Shown piece by piece: positions 15,583 through 23,574 of a stretch of DNA of 64,000 nt. The DNA is from Hymenobacter sp. BRD128. GTDB taxonomy: Bacteria > Bacteroidota > Bacteroidia > Cytophagales > Hymenobacteraceae. The notes below the pieces were generated by a model. The model was not told the origin of the DNA and did no database searches. It worked only from the letters and a program-made list of their open reading frames with translations. The position numbers and the translations under genes were made by a program. The stretch is taken from NCBI RefSeq assembly GCF_013256625.1, contig NZ_CP053908.1, forward strand, positions 248,001 to 312,000, written 5' to 3'. Numbering within the stretch: the stretch's first letter is position 1; each line of letters begins with the position of its first letter.

Positions 15583-16380
15583 TTAAGACAGGCTAGCCAC
15601 GGGCCGAATGCCCGCCACAAACTTCCGAATGGCCGCCGTGCGCCCTTCGGCTGGCGTGTTTTGCAAGAGCCGGATAAATGCGCTGCCGATGATGGCGCCC
15701 GTAGTGTGCCGGCCAGCCGCCGCAAAGCTCGCCGCGTCGCTGATACCAAAACCCACGAGGGTAGGGTTGCGCAAACCCAGCGCCTTGGTGCGGCTGAGGT
15801 AGGCATCCACGTCGGCGTTCATGTCGGTTTGGGCGCCGGTGGTGCCGGCGGCGGCCACCAGGTAGATGAAGCCATCGGCCAGGGTATCGAGCTGGCGCAC
15901 GCGGGCGGCACTGGTCTGCGGCGTCACGAGGAAGACTACTTGCAGACCATATTTTGCAAACAGCGGCTGGTACTCACGCTCGTACACTTCGAGCGGCAGG
16001 TCGGGCAAAATCAGGCCGTCGACGCCCACGGCCTGGCACTGCTGGCAAAACTTCTCGACCCCAAACTGCACTACCGGGTTGAGGTAGCCCATGAGTAGAA
16101 CCGGCACCGTAATGCCTTGCTGGCGAATGCCTTGCAGCTGTTCGAAGAGCATGGTCACGGTCATGCCGTTTTCGAGGGCCTGCTGGTTGCTGCGCTGAAT
16201 GGTTTCGCCGTCGGCCACGGGGTCGGAGTAGGGCATACCAATCTCGACGAGGTCGGCCCCGGCGTCTTGCAGCGCTTTTAAAATTGGCACGGTGTCATGC
16301 AACTGCGGAAAGCCGGCGGTGAAATAGACGTTGAGTACGTCAGTGGTTTTGCGTTGGAATAGGTGGGTGAGGCGGTTCAT
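15583..16380 (-). CDS. trpA: Tryptophan synthase alpha subunit
   Basis: 265 aa, typical length. It cleaves indole-3-glycerol phosphate to indole and glyceraldehyde-3-phosphate and passes indole to TrpB. TIM barrel with the catalytic pair visible: Glu46 in DLVEIGMPYSDP and Asp57 in VADGETIQRS (Glu49 and Asp60 in E. coli). C-terminal phosphate loops VGFGISDAAS and GAIIGSAFI are present. Last gene of the operon, 109 bp downstream of trpB, with a hairpin-forming repeat between them and a terminator behind. Confidence 0.97.
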   Translation of the reverse strand: MNRLTHLFQRKTTDVLNVYFTAGFPQLHDTVPILKALQDAGADLVEIGMPYSDPVADGETIQRSNQQALENGMTVTMLFEQLQGIRQQGITVPVLLMGYLNPVVQFGVEKFCQQCQAVGVDGLILPDLPLEVYEREYQPLFAKYGLQVVFLVTPQTSAARVRQLDTLADGFIYLVAAAGTTGAQTDMNADVDAYLSRTKALGLRNPTLVGFGISDAASFAAAGRHTTGAIIGSAFIRLLQNTPAEGRTAAIRKFVAGIRPVASLS

Positions 16381-16396
16381 AGGGTGAGTATATTTC

Positions 16397-16480
16397 GCAC
16401 AGAGTTAAAAGAGGAAAAAGAAGTCTCGCCGAGGGAGCACAACTCTGTGGAACTCCTTTTTCCTCTTTTTAACTCTGTGC
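16397..16480. repeat. Imperfect inverted repeat between trpB and trpA
   Basis: The left arm from 16397 (GCACAGAGTTAAAAGAGG, then a short A tract) pairs with the right arm ending at 16480, with a one-base indel in the A tract. A third copy of the ACAGAGTT core lies in the loop as AACTCTGTG. Cores of CACAGAG type are widespread in bacterial intergenic repeats. It may form a strong hairpin in the trp mRNA and reduce trpA expression or protect the 3' end. Confidence 0.75.
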
Positions 16481-16489
16481 TAAAAGACG

Positions 16490-17695
16490 TTAAGAATATT
16501 CTTCCAAGTGCTTGGTGTAGGTAGCCAAGTCCTTATCGCCGCGGCCCGAGAGGCACACCACAACCACATCGTCCTTTTTGGCCCCGATGAGCGGCAGGCA
16601 GGCTAGCGCGTGGGCCGTTTCGAGGGCCGGAATAATGCCTTCGAGGCGGCTGAGCTGGAAGGCTGCATCAAGGGCCGCCTTATCGGTGATGGAAATAAAT
16701 TCGGCGCGCCCGGTAGCAAACAGCTGCGCGTGCTGCGGCCCGATGCCGGGGTAGTCGAGCCCCGCCGAGATGGAGTACGGCTCGGTCACCTGGCCGTCCT
16801 CGGTTTGCATGAGAATGGTGCTGGCGCCGTGCAGAATACCGGGCTTGCCCAGCGCCGTAGTAGCGGCCGAGTGGCCGGTATCGACGCCCTGGCCGGCGGC
16901 CTCGGCGGCAATCAGGCGCACGCCGGGCTCGTCGAGGTAGTGGTAAAAGGCGCCCGCCGCGTTGGAGCCGCCGCCCACGCAGGCCAGCACGAAATCGGGA
17001 GTAGCACGGCCGGTTTGTTGCAGCAGCTGACTAATAGTTTCGGCCGAAATGATGGACTGAAACCGGGCCACCATGTCGGGGTAGGGGTGCGGCCCCACCA
17101 CCGAGCCGATGATGTAGTGCGTGTCGGTGGGGTTCGAAATCCAGTGGCGCATGGCCTCGTTGGTGGCATCTTTCAGCGTCTGGCTGCCGCTGGTGGCGGG
17201 CACTACTTTGGCGCCCAGCATGCGCATGCGGTCCACGTTGGGCTTCTGGCGCTCGATGTCGATGGCGCCCATGTATACGATGCATTCGAGGCCCATGAGG
17301 GCGCACACCGTAGCCGTGGCCACGCCGTGCTGGCCCGCGCCGGTTTCGGCCACGATACGCTTCTTGCCCAGCCGCTGCGCCACCAGTATTTGCCCGATGG
17401 TATTGTTGATTTTGTGCGCGCCGGTGTGGCACAGGTCTTCCCGCTTGAGGTAAATGGTGGTGCCAATGTGCTCGGACAGCCGCTGGGCCAGAAACAGCGG
17501 CGTAGGCCGCCCTACATAGTCAGTCAGCAGCTGCGTAAACTCGCGCTGAAACTCGGGGTCCTCAATGATACGCAGGTAGTTATCGCGCAGCTCCTCCACG
17601 TTGGGATAAAGCATTTCGGGCACGTAGGCGCCGCCAAAGGGGCCGTAGTAGCCGCTGGCATCGACGCGGTAGGGAGAGGGGGCGGTGAGAGTCAT
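16490..17695 (-). CDS. trpB: Tryptophan synthase beta subunit
   Basis: 401 aa. PLP enzyme that joins indole and serine. The N-terminus [15 protein letters not shown] is the family signature. Lys95 in HTGAHKINN is the PLP-binding lysine, GGGSNAAG (~233) binds the PLP phosphate, and Glu in ETGAGQHG is present. TrpB1 type, consistent with partnership with the adjacent trpA. It follows trpF by 25 bp. Confidence 0.97.
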
Positions 17696-17720
17696 TGAAA
17701 TAACGGGTAACAGTGAGTAA

Positions 17721-18359
17721 TTAGTAGTCGGCGCGCTGGTCGTGCAGGCGGGTCAGTACCCGGCCGGTAGCTTCGACGTCTTTGCGGCCGGGCGCTAGCT
17801 CCAGCAGGCTATTGAAGTCGTAGCCCGCCAGCTGCGGGTGGTGGAAGTGCAGTAGCCCGGCCAGGGTATCGGGGCCCAGGCCGCCGCTCAGCAAGAAGGG
17901 GGTGGGGCCGTGATAATGGCGCAAAAGCTCCCAATCGAAGGTCCGGCCATTACCGCCCCGCTGCGGGCCTTTGGTATCAAACAGAAAAAACTCGCAGCTA
18001 GGCCCGTAGTCGGTCAGGTTGGCAAAATCAGCAGGCTCAGCCACCGAAAAGGCCTTGATGATGCGCAGCCCCTGCTCGCGCACGGCGCGGCAGTAGGCCG
18101 GGGTTTCGTGGCCGTGCAGCTGCACGTAGTCGAGGCTGTAGTGGCTGGTGGTAGCCAGCAGCTCGGGCAGCGGCGCATCGACAAACACGCCCACCTTGCA
18201 CACCGAATCGGGCAGGCTGCGCAGTACCTCCGTGCTGAGGCTGGTACCCACGTAGCGGGGCGACTTCTCGTAGAAGATGAAGCCCAGAAAATCGGGGTTG
18301 AAATCGGCCACGGCCAGGATGTTGGCCGCTTCGCGCATACCGCATATTTTGACTTTCAT
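17721..18359 (-). CDS. trpF: Phosphoribosylanthranilate isomerase
   Basis: 212 aa TIM barrel that isomerises PRA to CdRP. KICGMRE (residues 3-9) carries the catalytic Cys, [11 protein letters not shown] (~28-38) matches the family, Asp in [11 protein letters not shown] is the catalytic acid, and LSGGLGPDT binds phosphate. Stand-alone, not fused to TrpC; the two genes are 5 bp apart and translationally linked. Confidence 0.96.
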
Positions 18360-18364
18360 AGGCG

Positions 18365-19171
18365 CTAAGAAGCCGAAACCGGTCCGGATAGTTCGGCCAC
18401 GAGGCTAGCCAGCGCCGCCGCCGGGTCGGGCGTTTTCATAAACGTTTCGCCGATGAGAAAGCCCTGGTAGCCCGCCTGCCGCAGCGCCAAGATGGTGCCG
18501 GCGTGCTGCAAGCCGCTCTCGGCCACCTTCACAAACGTGCTGGGAATGAGGCTAGCCAGCCGCGTCGACGTGTGCACGTCGGTCGCAAACGTGGCCAGGT
18601 TGCGGTTGTTCACGCCCACCAGGTCCACGCTGTTGGCCAGGTGGCGGTGCAGCTCGGCCTCGTCGTGCACCTCCAGCAGCACTTCCAGCCCCAGTTCGTG
18701 CGCGTATTTGCTTAACTGCACCATCTCGGCCGGCGTGAGGCAGGCGGCAATGAGCAGGACGAGGTCGGCCCCTAGGGCCCGCGCCTCAGCAAGCTGATAC
18801 GCGCTGATAATGAAATCCTTGCGCAAAATCGGCGTGTGCGGGCAGGCCGCCCGCGCCGCCCGCAGGTCGTCGGGTGTGCCGCCAAAAAACGGTTCATCGG
18901 TGAGCACCGACAGGCAAGCCGCGCCCGCCGCTACGTAGCCGGCCGTAGTGGCGCCGGCCTCGGCCGTGCCATTAATAACGCCTTTGGATGGCGAGCGGCG
19001 CTTAAACTCAGCAATGATGCCCGACGAGCCGGCGGCGGTGAGCGCCGCCCGCGCCGACAGCACCGGCCGCGTGAACAGCGGCGCTTTTTGCAGCGTGGCC
19101 AGGGGCGTTTCGGCCTCGCGCCGGGCCACTTCCTGGCGCTTTTCAGCAATTATTTTATCGAGGATAGTCAT
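18365..19171 (-). CDS. trpC: Indole-3-glycerol phosphate synthase
   Basis: 268 aa. Converts CdRP to indole-3-glycerol phosphate. N-terminal ILDKIIAEKRQEV is the typical extension helix. Catalytic residues appear in IIAEFKRRSPSKG (Glu, Lys), ILRKDFIISAYQ (Lys), DLVGVNNRNL (Asn) and VAESGL (Glu, Ser). Fourth gene of the operon, 61 bp after trpD. Confidence 0.96.
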   Translation of the reverse strand: MTILDKIIAEKRQEVARREAETPLATLQKAPLFTRPVLSARAALTAAGSSGIIAEFKRRSPSKGVINGTAEAGATTAGYVAAGAACLSVLTDEPFFGGTPDDLRAARAACPHTPILRKDFIISAYQLAEARALGADLVLLIAACLTPAEMVQLSKYAHELGLEVLLEVHDEAELHRHLANSVDLVGVNNRNLATFATDVHTSTRLASLIPSTFVKVAESGLQHAGTILALRQAGYQGFLIGETFMKTPDPAAALASLVAELSGPVSAS

Positions 19172-19232
19172 GGTTTTTTATCGTCTGTCATGCCGGCGAA
19201 GGAAGCAGGACAGGTTTTGTTGATTTTTTGAG

Positions 19233-20228
19233 TTAGCTCAGCGCCAGCAGCTTTTCAAACGCCTGCCGGGCCCGGCCGCTGTCGAGACTCTCGGCAGCCA
19301 GGGCTAGCCCTTCGGCGGCGGTAGCGGCGCGGCCGGCCGTGCGCAGGGCTAGCGCGGCATTGGCGAGCACTGCGTTGCGGTGGGCGGCGGGTGCTTCGTT
19401 GCGCAGTAATTTTTGGAAAATGTGCGCCGCCTCGGCCACCGTGTCGCCGCCAAACAAGGCCTCGGGTGTAGTTTGCGGCAGGTTTAAATCACTAGGCGAC
19501 AGCAACTCCTCGCCCTGGCGGCTGATGAGTTTTACGGGGCCCGTCAGCGACACCTCATCGTAGCCATCGAGGCTGTGCACGATGAGAAACTCGCGGCCCG
19601 CCTCCTGCTGGTGCAGGTAGGCGTAGAGGCGCGCCAGCTCCAGGCTGAACACGCCAACCAGCTGCAGGCGCGGCCTAGCCGGATTTACCAGCGGCCCCAG
19701 CATATTAAAGAAGGTTTTTACGCCCAGCTCTTTGCGCAGCGGCGCCACGTTTTTGAGGGCCGGGTGAAACAGCGGCGCGTGCAGAAAGCAAATATTGGCC
19801 TCGTCGAGCTGGCGCCGCAGGGCATCGTTGTCGGCCGTGAATTTTACGCCCATATACTCCAGCACCGTGCTGCTGCCGCTGATGCTCGACACGCCGTGGT
19901 TGCCGTGCTTAGCCACCGGCTGCCCCGCGCCGGCCACCACAAACGCCGATAAAGTGGAGATATTGAACGTGTTGCGACCGTCGCCGCCGGTACCGCACAC
20001 GTCCATCGCGTCGATGCCGCCCAGGTCTACGGGCCGGCACAGCTCCAGCAAGGCGTTGCGGAAGCCGGCCAGCTCCTCCACTGTCACGCTGCGCATGAGG
20101 TACACGGTGAGGAAAGCCGCAATCTGGGCCGGGTTGTACTGGCCCTGGGCAATGCCCAGCACCACGCGGTGCGCCTCTTCCTGGGGCAGCGTGCGGTAGG
20201 CAAAGAGGTGGTTGAGGGTGTCTTTCAC
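19233..20228 (-). CDS. trpD: Anthranilate phosphoribosyltransferase
   Basis: 331 aa. Transfers phosphoribose from PRPP to anthranilate. The glycine-rich CGTGGDGRNTFNIST (~78-92) is the PRPP/anthranilate signature, KHGNHGVSSISGS (~107-119) follows, and the metal-binding DEVSLTGP is present. Separate from TrpG (no fusion). A perfect 12-bp hairpin lies in the 79-bp gap to trpG. Confidence 0.96.
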   Translation of the reverse strand: MKDTLNHLFAYRTLPQEEAHRVVLGIAQGQYNPAQIAAFLTVYLMRSVTVEELAGFRNALLELCRPVDLGGIDAMDVCGTGGDGRNTFNISTLSAFVVAGAGQPVAKHGNHGVSSISGSSTVLEYMGVKFTADNDALRRQLDEANICFLHAPLFHPALKNVAPLRKELGVKTFFNMLGPLVNPARPRLQLVGVFSLELARLYAYLHQQEAGREFLIVHSLDGYDEVSLTGPVKLISRQGEELLSPSDLNLPQTTPEALFGGDTVAEAAHIFQKLLRNEAPAAHRNAVLANAALALRTAGRAATAAEGLALAAESLDSGRARQAFEKLLALS

Positions 20229-20261
20229 TTAAAATGCTGTTCGTCAGTTGATTTTTGCGCT

Positions 20262-20291
20262 TGTCAGTGCGAGCCTGCGCTCGCACTGACA
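20262..20291. repeat. Perfect 12-bp inverted repeat between trpG and trpD
   Basis: TGTCAGTGCGAG (20262-20273) is exactly complementary to 20280-20291, loop CCTGCG. The adjoining GTCTGTCA core recurs in inverse orientation before trpC (about 19183-19190), suggesting a dispersed intergenic repeat. No T-run follows, so termination is unlikely. Confidence 0.8.
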
Positions 20292-20307
20292 GACGATAGG
20301 GTAAGTG

Positions 20308-20880
20308 CTAGCCGTTCACCCAATTGGCCAGCATGGTTTTGCCGTGCTCCGTCAGCACCGACTCAGGGTGAAACTGCACCCCGAGCACGTCGTAGTCGCG
20401 GTGGGCGAGGGCTAGCACCTGGCCATTCTCATCAAGGGCCGTGATGCGCAGCTCGGCCGGCACGCCCTCGGGCGCGATGGTCCAGGAGTGGTAGCGGCCC
20501 ACGCGCACGGTGTCGGGCACGTCGTTGAAGAGCCGGTTGCCGGCTGCCTCGGGCGTCTGGTGCAGCGTGTGAGCCACGCCGTGGTGCACCTCGCCGAGGT
20601 TGGCGAGCTGGCCGCCAAAGGCCTCGCCAATGGCCTGGTGGCCCAGGCACACGCCCAGAATGTGCTTGGTAGGCGCGTAGCGCTTGATAAGCTCGGGCAT
20701 AATGCCGGCCTCGCTCGGAATGCCGGGACCCGGCGACAGTAAGATGTGCGAGTACTTATCAACCGCATCAAGGCTGATTTTATCGTTGCGAAACACGTCC
20801 ACTTCCTGCCCCAACTCGCGCAGCATATACACGAGGTTGTAGGTGAAGGAGTCGTAGTTGTCGAGAACCAGAATAGCCAT
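20308..20880 (-). CDS. trpG: Anthranilate synthase glutaminase subunit
   Basis: 190 aa from ATG 20880; an in-frame ATG 33 bp upstream lies in the repeat-bearing gap and adds residues that do not fit the family. Class I amidotransferase that supplies ammonia to TrpE. N-terminal ILVLDNYDSFTYNLV, catalytic Cys78 in GVCLGHQAIG, and His171/Glu173 in QFHPES form the triad. The protein could also serve p-aminobenzoate synthase, as no separate PabA is seen here. Confidence 0.96.
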   Translation of the reverse strand: MAILVLDNYDSFTYNLVYMLRELGQEVDVFRNDKISLDAVDKYSHILLSPGPGIPSEAGIMPELIKRYAPTKHILGVCLGHQAIGEAFGGQLANLGEVHHGVAHTLHQTPEAAGNRLFNDVPDTVRVGRYHSWTIAPEGVPAELRITALDENGQVLALAHRDYDVLGVQFHPESVLTEHGKTMLANWVNG

Positions 20881-20911
20881 TTTCTTACTAGAATTTATTT
20901 CTTTGAACGGC

Positions 20912-21003
20912 ATGCTGAACGCAGTGAAGCATCTTGGTCGCTTCTACCGCACCGGTCAGCAATGCGGTAGGGATGCTTCACTATGGTCAGCATAACCTCC
21001 TTT
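20912..21003. repeat. Large nested palindromic repeat (family copy 1)
   Basis: The outer arms at 20912-20933 and 20982-21003 (core ATGCTGA...GAAGCATC) are complementary with a few mismatches; the inner arms CTACCGCA (20944-20951) and TGCGGTAG (20963-20970) pair exactly. It lies between trpE and trpG. The core is shared with the palindrome at 35428-35530. Confidence 0.8.
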
Positions 21004-21016
21004 ATTAAAACCAACC

Positions 21017-22459
21017 TTATACTTTCTCCGCCTGCTGCAGCGCCGCGCGCAGCGCGCCCAGCTTGTTGTGCACCTCCTGCAACTCACTGGCGGGCACTGA
21101 CTTGGCCACCACGCCCGCGCCGGCCTGGTAATACAGCGTGTTATCCTTGCTGAGGAAAGTGCGAATCATGATGGCGTGGTTAAAGTCGCCGCCGAAGTCG
21201 AGCGCCCCGATGCAGCCGCCGTAGAAGCCCCGCTGGGTGCTTTCGTATTCATCGATGAGCTGCACGGCGCGGTACTTGGGCGCGCCCGAAAGCGTGCCGG
21301 CCGGGAAGGTTTCGCCCACCACGTCGAGCGGCTCGGTGTCGGGGCCTAGCTGGCCCACTACCTTGGAAACCAAGTGAATAACGTGCGAGTAGTACTGAAT
21401 TTCCTTGAAGCGCTCCACGGCCACCACGTCGCAGCGGCGGCTAAGGTCATTGCGGGCCAGGTCCACGAGCATTACGTGCTCGGCGGTTTCCTTGGGGTCA
21501 TCGAGCAGCTGCTGGGCTAGCCGGGCATCGGCCGCATCGTCGCCGGTGCGGCGGAAAGTGCCCGCGATGGGGTAGAGCACCGCCTGGCCCTTGCTAACCA
21601 CAATCTGCGACTCGGGCGAGGAGCCAAATAGCTTGTAGCTGCCGTAATCGAAAAAGAAGAGGTAGGGCGACGGATTGAGCGAGCGCAGCGCCCGGTATAC
21701 GTTAAACTCATCGCCCTGAAAGCCTTGCTGAAAGCGCCGCGACAGCACAATCTGAAACACGTCGCCGCGCTGGCAATGGTGCTGCCCCAGCCGGATAAGC
21801 TCCAGAAACTGCTCATCGGTCGCGTTCGAGCTTTCCGGACCCTGAAGGTAAAACGGGTGGGTAGCAAAGTTGCGGTTGTGGATAAGCGTCTCGATGTAGT
21901 CGAGCGTATCGGCGGCCGGCGTTTCGCCCTCGGCCAGGTACTGGTGCTCAAACAGGTAAAGCTCGTCTTTGAAATGGTTGATGGCAATAACGTAGCGAAA
22001 TGCTTGATAAACAATAGCTGGCACCGTGCTCGCGCCGGGCTTGTCGCGCAGCGTCACATCCTCAAAATACTGCACTGCCTCGTAGGCCATGTGCCCAAAC
22101 AGCCCGTTGGTGATAAACGGCAGCCCCGACGGCGCGGCGGGCCGGAACCTCTCCCGAAACGCCCGCAGATGCGCCAGCGCCTGGCGCGGGTCGGCGAGGG
22201 CAGTAGTGCTGGCCGGCCGACCGGGATGCTGCGTGGTTAGCTGATTTTTATCCAGCTCGAAGCGCGCTACCGGGCTGAAGCACAAGTACGAAAAGCTGTT
22301 GCTGTTGCCGTGGTAGTCAGAGCTTTCGAGCAGCAGCGTGCCCACAAACTGGTCGCGCAGACGCAGGTACAGGCTCACCGGCGTGAGCGTATCGGCCAGC
22401 AGGCGCCGGTGGCGGCTGTGCACGATGGTGGCGGAAGAAGTGGCGGTAGCGGCCGGCAT
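21017..22459 (-). CDS. trpE: Anthranilate synthase component I
   Basis: 480 aa. Makes anthranilate from chorismate with TrpG. LLESSDYHG (~43-51) is the tryptophan feedback-binding motif, and the C-terminal chorismate-binding domain shows FQIVLSRRF, LFGSSPESQIV, PIAGTFRRTG, VDLARNDLSR and FPAGTLSGAPK. First structural gene of the trp operon. Its ATG follows an intrinsic terminator by 29 nt and a leader ORF with tandem Trp codons, so it is controlled by transcription attenuation in addition to feedback. Confidence 0.97.
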   Translation of the reverse strand: MPAATATSSATIVHSRHRRLLADTLTPVSLYLRLRDQFVGTLLLESSDYHGNSNSFSYLCFSPVARFELDKNQLTTQHPGRPASTTALADPRQALAHLRAFRERFRPAAPSGLPFITNGLFGHMAYEAVQYFEDVTLRDKPGASTVPAIVYQAFRYVIAINHFKDELYLFEHQYLAEGETPAADTLDYIETLIHNRNFATHPFYLQGPESSNATDEQFLELIRLGQHHCQRGDVFQIVLSRRFQQGFQGDEFNVYRALRSLNPSPYLFFFDYGSYKLFGSSPESQIVVSKGQAVLYPIAGTFRRTGDDAADARLAQQLLDDPKETAEHVMLVDLARNDLSRRCDVVAVERFKEIQYYSHVIHLVSKVVGQLGPDTEPLDVVGETFPAGTLSGAPKYRAVQLIDEYESTQRGFYGGCIGALDFGGDFNHAIMIRTFLSKDNTLYYQAGAGVVAKSVPASELQEVHNKLGALRAALQQAEKV

Positions 22460-22488
22460 GGCAAGGAAAGACGGGGGTAGGGAACAAC

Positions 22489-22519
22489 AAAAAAGCCCGC
22501 TGCGGTGAGCAGCGGGCTT
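22489..22519 (-). terminator. trp attenuator (leader terminator)
   Basis: On the minus strand an exact 11-bp GC-rich stem (AAGCCCGCTGC, loop ggtga in plus orientation) is followed by six Ts. It lies between the leader peptide stop (22556) and the trpE ATG (22459), the position of a classic attenuator. A 6-nt TGAGCA near the end of the leader ORF can pair with TGCTCA in the terminator loop and left arm, a possible but short antiterminator. Confidence 0.88.
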
Positions 22520-22555
22520 GGAGAATCTCAGAGGGGTTCAACCAACGTATAATGC

Positions 22556-22621
22556 CTAATGCTCAGCCTTCGGGAAGGTTGAGTGCCACCAGCTTTGCGA
22601 AACGGTTGCGGAGAAAGACAT
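22556..22621 (-). CDS. trpL: trp operon leader peptide
   Basis: A 21-residue ORF: ATG at 22621, stop TAG at 22558-22556. It begins MSFSATVSQS, then has two consecutive Trp codons (TGGTGG, 22591-22586), then HSTFPKAEH. Position, length and tandem Trp codons are those of a leader peptide sensing charged tRNA-Trp: stalling at WW would favour an antiterminator and allow transcription into trpE. Too short for ordinary ORF prediction. A Bacteroidota-type promoter lies 24-31 nt upstream. The mechanism is inferred from analogy to enterobacterial trpL; the ORF and codons are directly visible. Confidence 0.85.
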   Translation of the reverse strand: MSFSATVSQSWWHSTFPKAEH

Positions 22622-22644
22622 TGAATTGAACTGGTTTCCGGGAG

Positions 22645-22674
22645 CAAAGAAACGACGCTTTTTTGAAAAAGCAA
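22645..22674 (-). promoter_or_regulatory. Promoter of the trp operon
   Basis: Minus strand: TTG (22674-22672), 19-nt spacer, TTTCTTTG (22652-22645), one mismatch to TAnnTTTG. Transcription would start about 20 nt upstream of the trpL ATG. Confidence 0.6.
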
Positions 22675-22737
22675 CTTCGGGAGCTGGAAAAATTTCCCGC
22701 AGAGGCTGCACAGGGTTTCCGCTGAGGTGCGCGGAAA

Positions 22738-23574
22738 TTATTGGGGGCTGGCTAGCCGCGTTTCTTCGGGCCCCAGCTCTACTACGCCCTGCTTGTAGAG
22801 CGCACCCAGAGCCTTTTTAAATACCTTTTTGCTCATGCCCAGGCGGCGGTACACGTCGTCGGCCAGGCTTTTGTCGCCGAGGGGCAAGCGGCCATCGGGG
22901 CGCTGCCGCAGGGCGGCCAGCACGAGGCGCGAAGCCATTTCAACTTCGTCGTAGCCAGCCTGGCCGAGGCGCACGTCGAGCTTGCCGTCGGGCCGAATCT
23001 GGCGCAGGTGGGCCGGTAGCAGCTCGCCCACGCGCAGCGGGCGAAATACTTCGTTGTGATAGAGTAGGCCCAGGTGCGTGCCGTTCACGACGACGGAGTA
23101 GCCGAGCGGCGTCTCTTCGGCAATGAGCACCTGCACGGCCTCGCCCACGGCCCCTGCAAACGGCTCGGGACTGAGAAATTGCTGCCATTTGGCCGAGGCC
23201 ACCAGGCGGTCGCTAGCCTCGTCGAGGTATACGTACACCAGCACGCGCTCGCCCACGCGCACGGCCTGGCGCTGGTTGGCGTGGGGCAGGAGCAGGTCTT
23301 TTTCGAGGCCCCAGTCGAGGAAAGCGCCGGGCGGGCCCACGTCGCGCACGGTGAGTGCGGCAAAGCTATCGACTACCGCCAGCGGCTCCAGGGTGGTGGC
23401 AATGAGGCGGTCCTCAGAATCGCGGTAAACAAACACGCGGATAACGTCGCCGACGCGCGCGCCCACCGGGCGGTACTTTTCGGGCAGCAGCAGGTCGCCG
23501 TCGTCGCTGGTCAGATAAAAGCCAATGCTGACTTCGCGGGCTATTTCGAGGTCGTTAAAATCGCCAAGGCGCAT
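22738..23574 (-). CDS. CvfB-family S1 RNA-binding protein
   Basis: 278 aa. CvfB/YitL proteins have tandem S1-like OB folds and a C-terminal winged helix and bind RNA; in Staphylococcus they influence virulence gene expression. OB-type repeats are visible at ~5-60 (GFYLTSDDGDLLLPEKYRP), ~70-130 (GPPGAFLDWGLEKDLLLPH) and ~150-210 (GYSVVVNGTHLGLLYHNEVF). The C-terminal LADDVYRRLGMSKKVFKKAL is the winged helix. Stand-alone gene upstream of the trp promoter, same strand. Confidence 0.9.
   Translation of the reverse strand: MRLGDFNDLEIAREVSIGFYLTSDDGDLLLPEKYRPVGARVGDVIRVFVYRDSEDRLIATTLEPLAVVDSFAALTVRDVGPPGAFLDWGLEKDLLLPHANQRQAVRVGERVLVYVYLDEASDRLVASAKWQQFLSPEPFAGAVGEAVQVLIAEETPLGYSVVVNGTHLGLLYHNEVFRPLRVGELLPAHLRQIRPDGKLDVRLGQAGYDEVEMASRLVLAALRQRPDGRLPLGDKSLADDVYRRLGMSKKVFKKALGALYKQGVVELGPEETRLASPQ

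Follow-up and report, generated by a model that had tools for sequence, protein, structure and literature searches.

How is the tryptophan operon of Hymenobacter sp. BRD128 controlled? In the stretch of DNA analysed here (64,000 nt, hereafter the window), trpE is separated by a leader region of 278 bases from a cvfB-like ORF on the same strand, which ends at 22738. The first-pass annotation had read this region as a complete trp leader peptide and attenuator, composed of a promoter-like site, a 21-codon ORF with two consecutive Trp codons and an intrinsic terminator 29 nt before trpE. Rereading of the sequence shows that all of these coordinates are exact (Table 1), with the 29 nt counted from the end of the terminator T-run to the trpE ATG. 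The promoter-like site has the form of Bacteroidota promoters. The names trpG, trpD, trpC, trpF, trpB and trpA, and that of the cvfB-like gene, were assigned by reading the proteins, without a family search. From the arrangement of these parts and their conservation in relatives, the locus very probably controls the trp operon by ribosome-mediated transcription attenuation.

Table 1. Features of the trp leader locus and the operon behind it, in positions of the window
Feature	Position	Strand	Details
Promoter-like site, TTG-N19-TTTCTTTG	22674-22645	minus	TTG 22674-22672; 19-nt spacing; TTTCTTTG 22652-22645
trp leader peptide ORF, MSFSATVSQSWWHSTFPKAEH	22621-22556	minus	21 codons; ATG 22621, TAG 22558-22556; predicted translation
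Tandem Trp codons	22591-22586	minus	Proposed stall site; codons 22591-22589 and 22588-22586
Strand 1, CUCA-A-CCUU	22583-22575	minus	Partner of strand 2 in the proposed 1:2 protector hairpin
Strand 2, AGGCUGAGCAUUAGGC	22569-22554	minus	Predicted antiterminator 5' strand; overlaps the stop codon
Strand 3, GCCCGCUGCUCACC	22517-22504	minus	Predicted antiterminator 3' strand; shared with part of the terminator 5' arm and its loop
Intrinsic terminator	22519-22489	minus	11-bp stem 22519-22509/22503-22493; 5-nt loop 22508-22504; T-run to 22489
trpE	22459-21017	minus	First gene of the controlled operon; ORF, ATG at 22459
trpG, trpD, trpC, trpF, trpB, trpA	20913-15583	minus	ORFs behind trpE on the same strand

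In the proposed mechanism, transcription would begin behind 22645 and the leader ORF would be translated at once. When charged tRNA-Trp is scarce, the ribosome would stall on the two Trp codons and cover strand 1; strand 2 would then be free to pair with strand 3 once the latter is made, and this antiterminator would hold back the terminator until the polymerase has moved on into trpE. When tryptophan is plentiful, the ribosome would read on to the stop codon, in or beside strand 2, and would cover that strand; the terminator would then form and transcription would end before trpE. We infer the use of the promoter, the translation of the ORF, the stalling of the ribosome, the persistence of the antiterminator and the end of the transcript at 22489; the analysis itself shows the parts, their conservation and predicted folds of the growing RNA that go the required way.

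The predicted antiterminator is a part that the first-pass annotation did not name. The duplex of strands 2 and 3 has a calculated energy of -15.4 kcal/mol (p 0.025 in a comparison with 200 dinucleotide shuffles) and begins 19 nt downstream of the first base of the last Trp codon. The earlier proposal to fold the leader with and without a ribosome at the Trp codons was followed in 16 of the 17 leaders of the window's close clade (L094 was left out of the alignment, which also serves for the pairing counts below), with a modelled ribosome that covers 13 nt, counted from the first base of the last Trp codon. With the ribosome there and an RNA that ends before the terminator 3' arm, the antiterminator is predicted in 16/16 leaders; when the ribosome is placed at the stop codon instead, it is the terminator that is predicted, again in 16/16. 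The growing RNA is thus predicted to fold as the mechanism demands, but the finished RNA is not: on the complete leader RNA, with the ribosome still on the Trp codons, the terminator is predicted in 16/16 and the antiterminator in 0/16, and the complete-RNA fold is lower by about 6.6 to 14 kcal/mol than the fold without the 3' arm. Because the terminator wins on the whole RNA in every case, the switch must be kinetic; by these models, it must be that the antiterminator forms first and outlasts the passage of the polymerase, as the switch works only then. Other attenuators are believed to rely on the same kinetic precedence of the antiterminator.

Within the clade, the pairing of strands 2 and 3 is kept in 139/139 pair cells. 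No compensatory change was found in the antiterminator among these leaders, in which only one pair varies, from U-A to U-G; covariation is uninformative here because the sequences are too similar, and the support that the clade lends to the predicted antiterminator is thus conservation rather than covariation. In the terminator, one pair is changed on both sides in 1/16 clade sequences. The 1:2 hairpin of strands 1 and 2 keeps 96.9% of its pair cells; it is predicted in the full leader of the window and in the leader cut after UGCUCA, and with a cut a few bases later in only 1/16 clade sequences. A second candidate pairing, of TCAACC with GGTTGA, was dropped, being lost in both clade members with three Trp codons (alignment judged by eye).

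Conservation in the clade is limited to the promoter, the leader, the switch strands and the terminator. Averaged over 14 close relatives, identity to the window is 99.8% in the terminator, 99.2% in leader codons 5-16 and 87.4% in the promoter, and falls to 43.5% upstream of the promoter, 57.4% in the 5' UTR and 64.3% in the spacer before trpE; the strand 2 core, UGAGCAUUAGGC, is 100% identical in all 14. The promoter form TTG-N19-TnnnTTTG is found in 15/17 clade genomes and in 1/340 letter-shuffled controls, which were allowed N18-20; outside the clade it is found in only 65/98 other Hymenobacter leaders and 23/52 leaders of other members of the order or class. The Trp run is WW in 15 clade genomes and WWW in two. 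Fifteen clade genomes end the ORF with TGA and two (the window and L095) with TAG, always in or beside strand 2; the position of this stop is not conserved, because of single-base variation in the stretch after the Trp codons. Of the features whose conservation the first-pass annotation had put up for checking or as a refuting condition (WW codons, start and stop), the Trp codons and the start stand (WW or WxW in an ATG-started ORF in 115/115 Hymenobacter) but the position of the stop does not.

The near-invariance of codons 5-16 would also be expected if the peptide itself acted in trans, with attenuation a side function or absent, a mode of action reported for peTrpL of Sinorhizobium (PMC7298713). 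The third positions of these codons are, however, nearly as invariant as the codons themselves (98.2% in the 14 relatives, versus 70.9% in trpE), which points to a constraint on the RNA rather than on the peptide. Moreover, the C-terminus varies among relatives with the reading frame, and outside the clade the peptide differs apart from the Trp run. A peptide that acts in trans is thus very unlikely to be the main function of the ORF, and attenuation by the translating ribosome is the reading retained here. A separate observation concerns codons 5-10 (22609-22592), upstream of the Trp codons: in 13/15 other clade leaders they match those of the window at every base, the third positions among them. 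Classic attenuation makes no such demand, and there may be an extra RNA element in this stretch.

Could such an arrangement arise by chance? Both strands of the 64-kb window together hold 12 short ORFs that start with ATG and contain WW or WxW, and only one of the 12, the trp leader ORF, has a terminator that starts within 170 nt of the last Trp codon. In a Markov control (2300 resamplings, first-order, of 115 Hymenobacter trpE upstream regions), 41 WW/WxW ORFs appeared, none with a terminator and none with WWW; a chance ORF is rejected on this count. The same control bears on the suggestion that the terminator merely serves the cvfB-like gene constitutively and that the short ORF is accidental. 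That gene does lie on the same strand, and its end is 63 nt ahead of the promoter-like site, but a conserved promoter-like site and a Trp-rich ORF intervene between it and the terminator. In six Hymenobacter from outside the clade that were checked, the cvfB-like gene is elsewhere or on another contig, yet leaders precede trpE in 115/115 genomes. Together with the 0/2300 random sequences that carry both ORF and terminator, this makes a constitutive cvfB terminator a scarcely credible account of the locus. Two further candidates were rejected. A multi-copy element is at odds with the matches of the clade model R1, which finds a single strong match per genome (at least 91 bits), beside trpE, in 17/120 genomes, most of which had gone into the model; beyond these, the best score is 33 bits, and another 66 genomes have weak matches (E up to 0.01). 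A plasmid-borne element is at odds with the lack of a match among plasmids.

Tryptophan could in principle be sensed at this leader by another device. TRAP, T-boxes and the Trp repressor are used for trp operons in other bacteria, and one of them, or a Trp repressor operator, might act here. On the other hand, there is no TRAP match in 41/41 genus genomes and no Trp repressor above the cut-off in the same 41/41 (G031 has one weak match below it), and both are rejected on these grounds. All Rfam families stay below their cut-offs in the window; there is thus no recognisable T-box, and this sensor was likewise rejected. Control by any of these sensors is highly improbable, and the ribosome-mediated attenuator is retained.

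Of the two closest known families, neither reaches its cut-off on the leader of the window. Its best match is Rfam RF00513 (Trp_leader, as in E. coli trpL), over the full length, with 35.6 bits against a cut-off of 41 (E 5.9e-6 for 251 bases searched). The Trp codons, the hairpin and the terminator align with those of the window's leader, which differs in having a Bacteroidota-type promoter and in its score below the cut-off; the family is above its cut-off in 0/120 Hymenobacter genomes. RF01692 (Bacteroid-trp) has no match on the window's leader up to E 10. It is above its cut-off (49 bits) in 0/120 Hymenobacter genomes and in at least 8/198 genomes of the class, a lower bound, since the filters were strict and 16 candidates were scored per genome. 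Among 20 loci of relatives, three exceed this cut-off (L127 with 88.5, L140 with 79.2 and L115 with 69.1 bits). These three belong to the same phylum, have the match in the same place before trpE and also carry a WWW leader and a terminator recognised by our detector; their switch sequences, on the other hand, are unlike those of the window's leader. Since leaders are present in 115/115 Hymenobacter and 0/120 genomes are above either cut-off, both family models miss the Hymenobacter trp leader.

The first-pass annotation had held that such leaders are seldom annotated in the phylum. This is true of the genus, as the counts for Bacteroid-trp show, but in Bacteroidetes the kind was already known from a motif table of 2010, which includes Bacteroid-trp, a "Bacteroidete tryptophan peptide leader RNA" (PMC2864571). 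Among the literature matches listed, none was a paper on trp attenuation in Bacteroidota, but these listings also lacked PMC2864571 and so prove no absence. The authors of PMC2965389 state that, to their knowledge, leader peptide systems had been demonstrated in no phylum but Proteobacteria and Actinobacteria until they described one in Firmicutes, PMC7366714 describes short ORFs in Bacteroides 5' UTRs as reminiscent of leader peptides, and PMC1173090 mentions a database-predicted attenuator ahead of a Bacteroides aromatic operon. A 2010 survey by Lopatovskaya et al., cited in PMC4833913, may cover trp attenuation in the phylum. The trp attenuator is thus a kind already known, also in Bacteroidota, and the window's member lies outside the cut-offs of both Rfam models.

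To what extent is the leader shared? Among 120 Hymenobacter genomes searched, the trpE upstream regions of 115 were put through the detector; an ATG-started WW/WxW leader precedes trpE in 115/115, with a terminator as well in 114 (the exception is L228). Three further genomes with partial TrpE matches (G018, G062, G096) have a WWW leader in 3/3 and an obvious terminator in 2/3; of the last two, G006 has no TrpE match of comparable strength and G090 has a TrpE fragment only. The near-universality of the leader in the genus and a predicted antiterminator with the expected spacing from the Trp codons uphold the reading of the locus as ribosome-mediated trp attenuation.

In a sample of the phylum, TrpE is matched at E 1e-90 in 118/247 genomes, three of them from the genus, 53 from the same order or class and 62 others, and the phylum-wide leader counts rest on these genomes chosen by TrpE similarity. 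In the same order or class, the leader is found in 52/53 (the exception is L164) and the leader with terminator in 48/53. From the rest, 14 of 62 were inspected, and 12/14 have a leader and 6/14 also a terminator by the strict detector. Among contigs that carry a name, 78/80 have a leader and 77/80 a terminator too; these contigs partly duplicate genomes of the unnamed sets, and one of the 78 (L022) has a distant ORF only and is not trusted. The L164 locus (genome G355) has no leader directly ahead of trpE and has a Bacteroid-trp match of 78.1 bits about 1.3 kb upstream; this leader may head an operon with another gene ahead of trpE. Unusual Trp runs also occur, namely WLW in L145 and L146, WYW in L080 and WWWW in L178.

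The leaders of other Hymenobacter resemble that of the window in having a leader peptide and a terminator before trpE, and mostly the same promoter form. They differ in having three Trp codons (e.g., MTQQAWWWPYGNSGRDNLCVR) and in another antiterminator pairing, such as CCGGACGGGA with the terminator arm. In the energy-shuffle test, run on distinct leader/terminator pairs only (15 from the clade), p was 0.05 or less in 12/15 clade leaders, 35/46 named Cytophagales, 16/48 leaders of the other order/class set and 0/91 other Hymenobacter. The distance from the first base of the last Trp codon to the candidate 5' strand is 14-23 nt in 15/15 clade leaders, 86/91 other Hymenobacter, 43/48 of the other order/class set and 40/46 named Cytophagales (distinct leaders), compared with 25.9%, 20.5%, 25.0% and 24.6% of letter shuffles, respectively. 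In only 41/91 other Hymenobacter does the paired strand come as close as 13 nt to the stop codon. Across lineages, the predicted antiterminator is thus of constant geometry and is built from different pairing letters.

A side observation concerns loci with more than one leader ORF. Two WW ORFs are present in 7/262 upstream sets, of which L028 and L189 were set aside as chance. In the other five, two WW/WWW leader ORFs stand in series within about 420 nt of trpE: L044 (Fulvivirga marina, leaders MKNNSLNNAWWWHYTKTW and MRTLIYINKVWWWHFSHIGE), L047 and L057 (Rufibacter), and L049 and L079 (Flammeovirgaceae assemblies). The detector finds a terminator in both units of L044, L049 and L079 and only in the second unit of L047 and L057. 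A candidate antiterminator is present in both units of L044 and L047 and in the second of L079, and is weak for the first of L079. These double leaders look like tandem trp attenuators.

The difference between the window's leader and those of most Hymenobacter has a counterpart in the operon itself. By its TrpE, the window falls into a group of 17/120 genus genomes with 89-100% identity, to which G090 adds a fragment with 98%, and the best TrpE matches of the other Hymenobacter, G006 excepted, have 61-64% identity to the window. In a TrpE tree (48 of 49 hand-picked proteins; L035 was lost to the length filter), the window's group joins Spirosoma, Fibrella and Larkinella (99/98). The remaining Hymenobacter group with Rufibacter, which is of the same family as they are (100/99). 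TrpE of G307 is placed in the Spirosomataceae part of this tree, and the window's TrpC has 62% identity to that of G307 versus 53-55% to those of six other Hymenobacter. The cvfB-like neighbour behaves in the opposite way, with 68-74% identity to the six other Hymenobacter and 42% to G307, and this gene, just upstream of the trp operon, looks native. These contrasts are most simply explained if this lineage had its trp operon (15583-22459) replaced from a Spirosomataceae-like donor, the donor and the direction being our inference from sequence comparison. Perhaps the attenuator was transferred along with the operon.

Taken as a single proposal, attenuation would be ancestral to Bacteroidota and near-universal before trpE. 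The leader would have been kept while each lineage rebuilt the letters of antiterminator and terminator, with an unchanged spacing from the Trp codons, and most members would for this reason escape the family models; some lineages would have two attenuators in series, and the device would travel with the operon in horizontal transfer. We regard this joint claim as evenly poised between right and wrong. For the locus itself, a trp attenuator of the ordinary kind is well supported.

Bacteroidota ribosomes mostly start without a Shine-Dalgarno sequence, and, to our knowledge, the coupling of transcription and translation has been little studied in this phylum. The present analysis indicates a textbook control device in bacteria that mostly start translation in this way. 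Its interest lies in the near-universality of the leader before trpE, the blindness of the family models to it, a fixed geometry with changing letters and the occurrence of tandem copies. Lineage-aware models would allow the annotation of trp control across the phylum.
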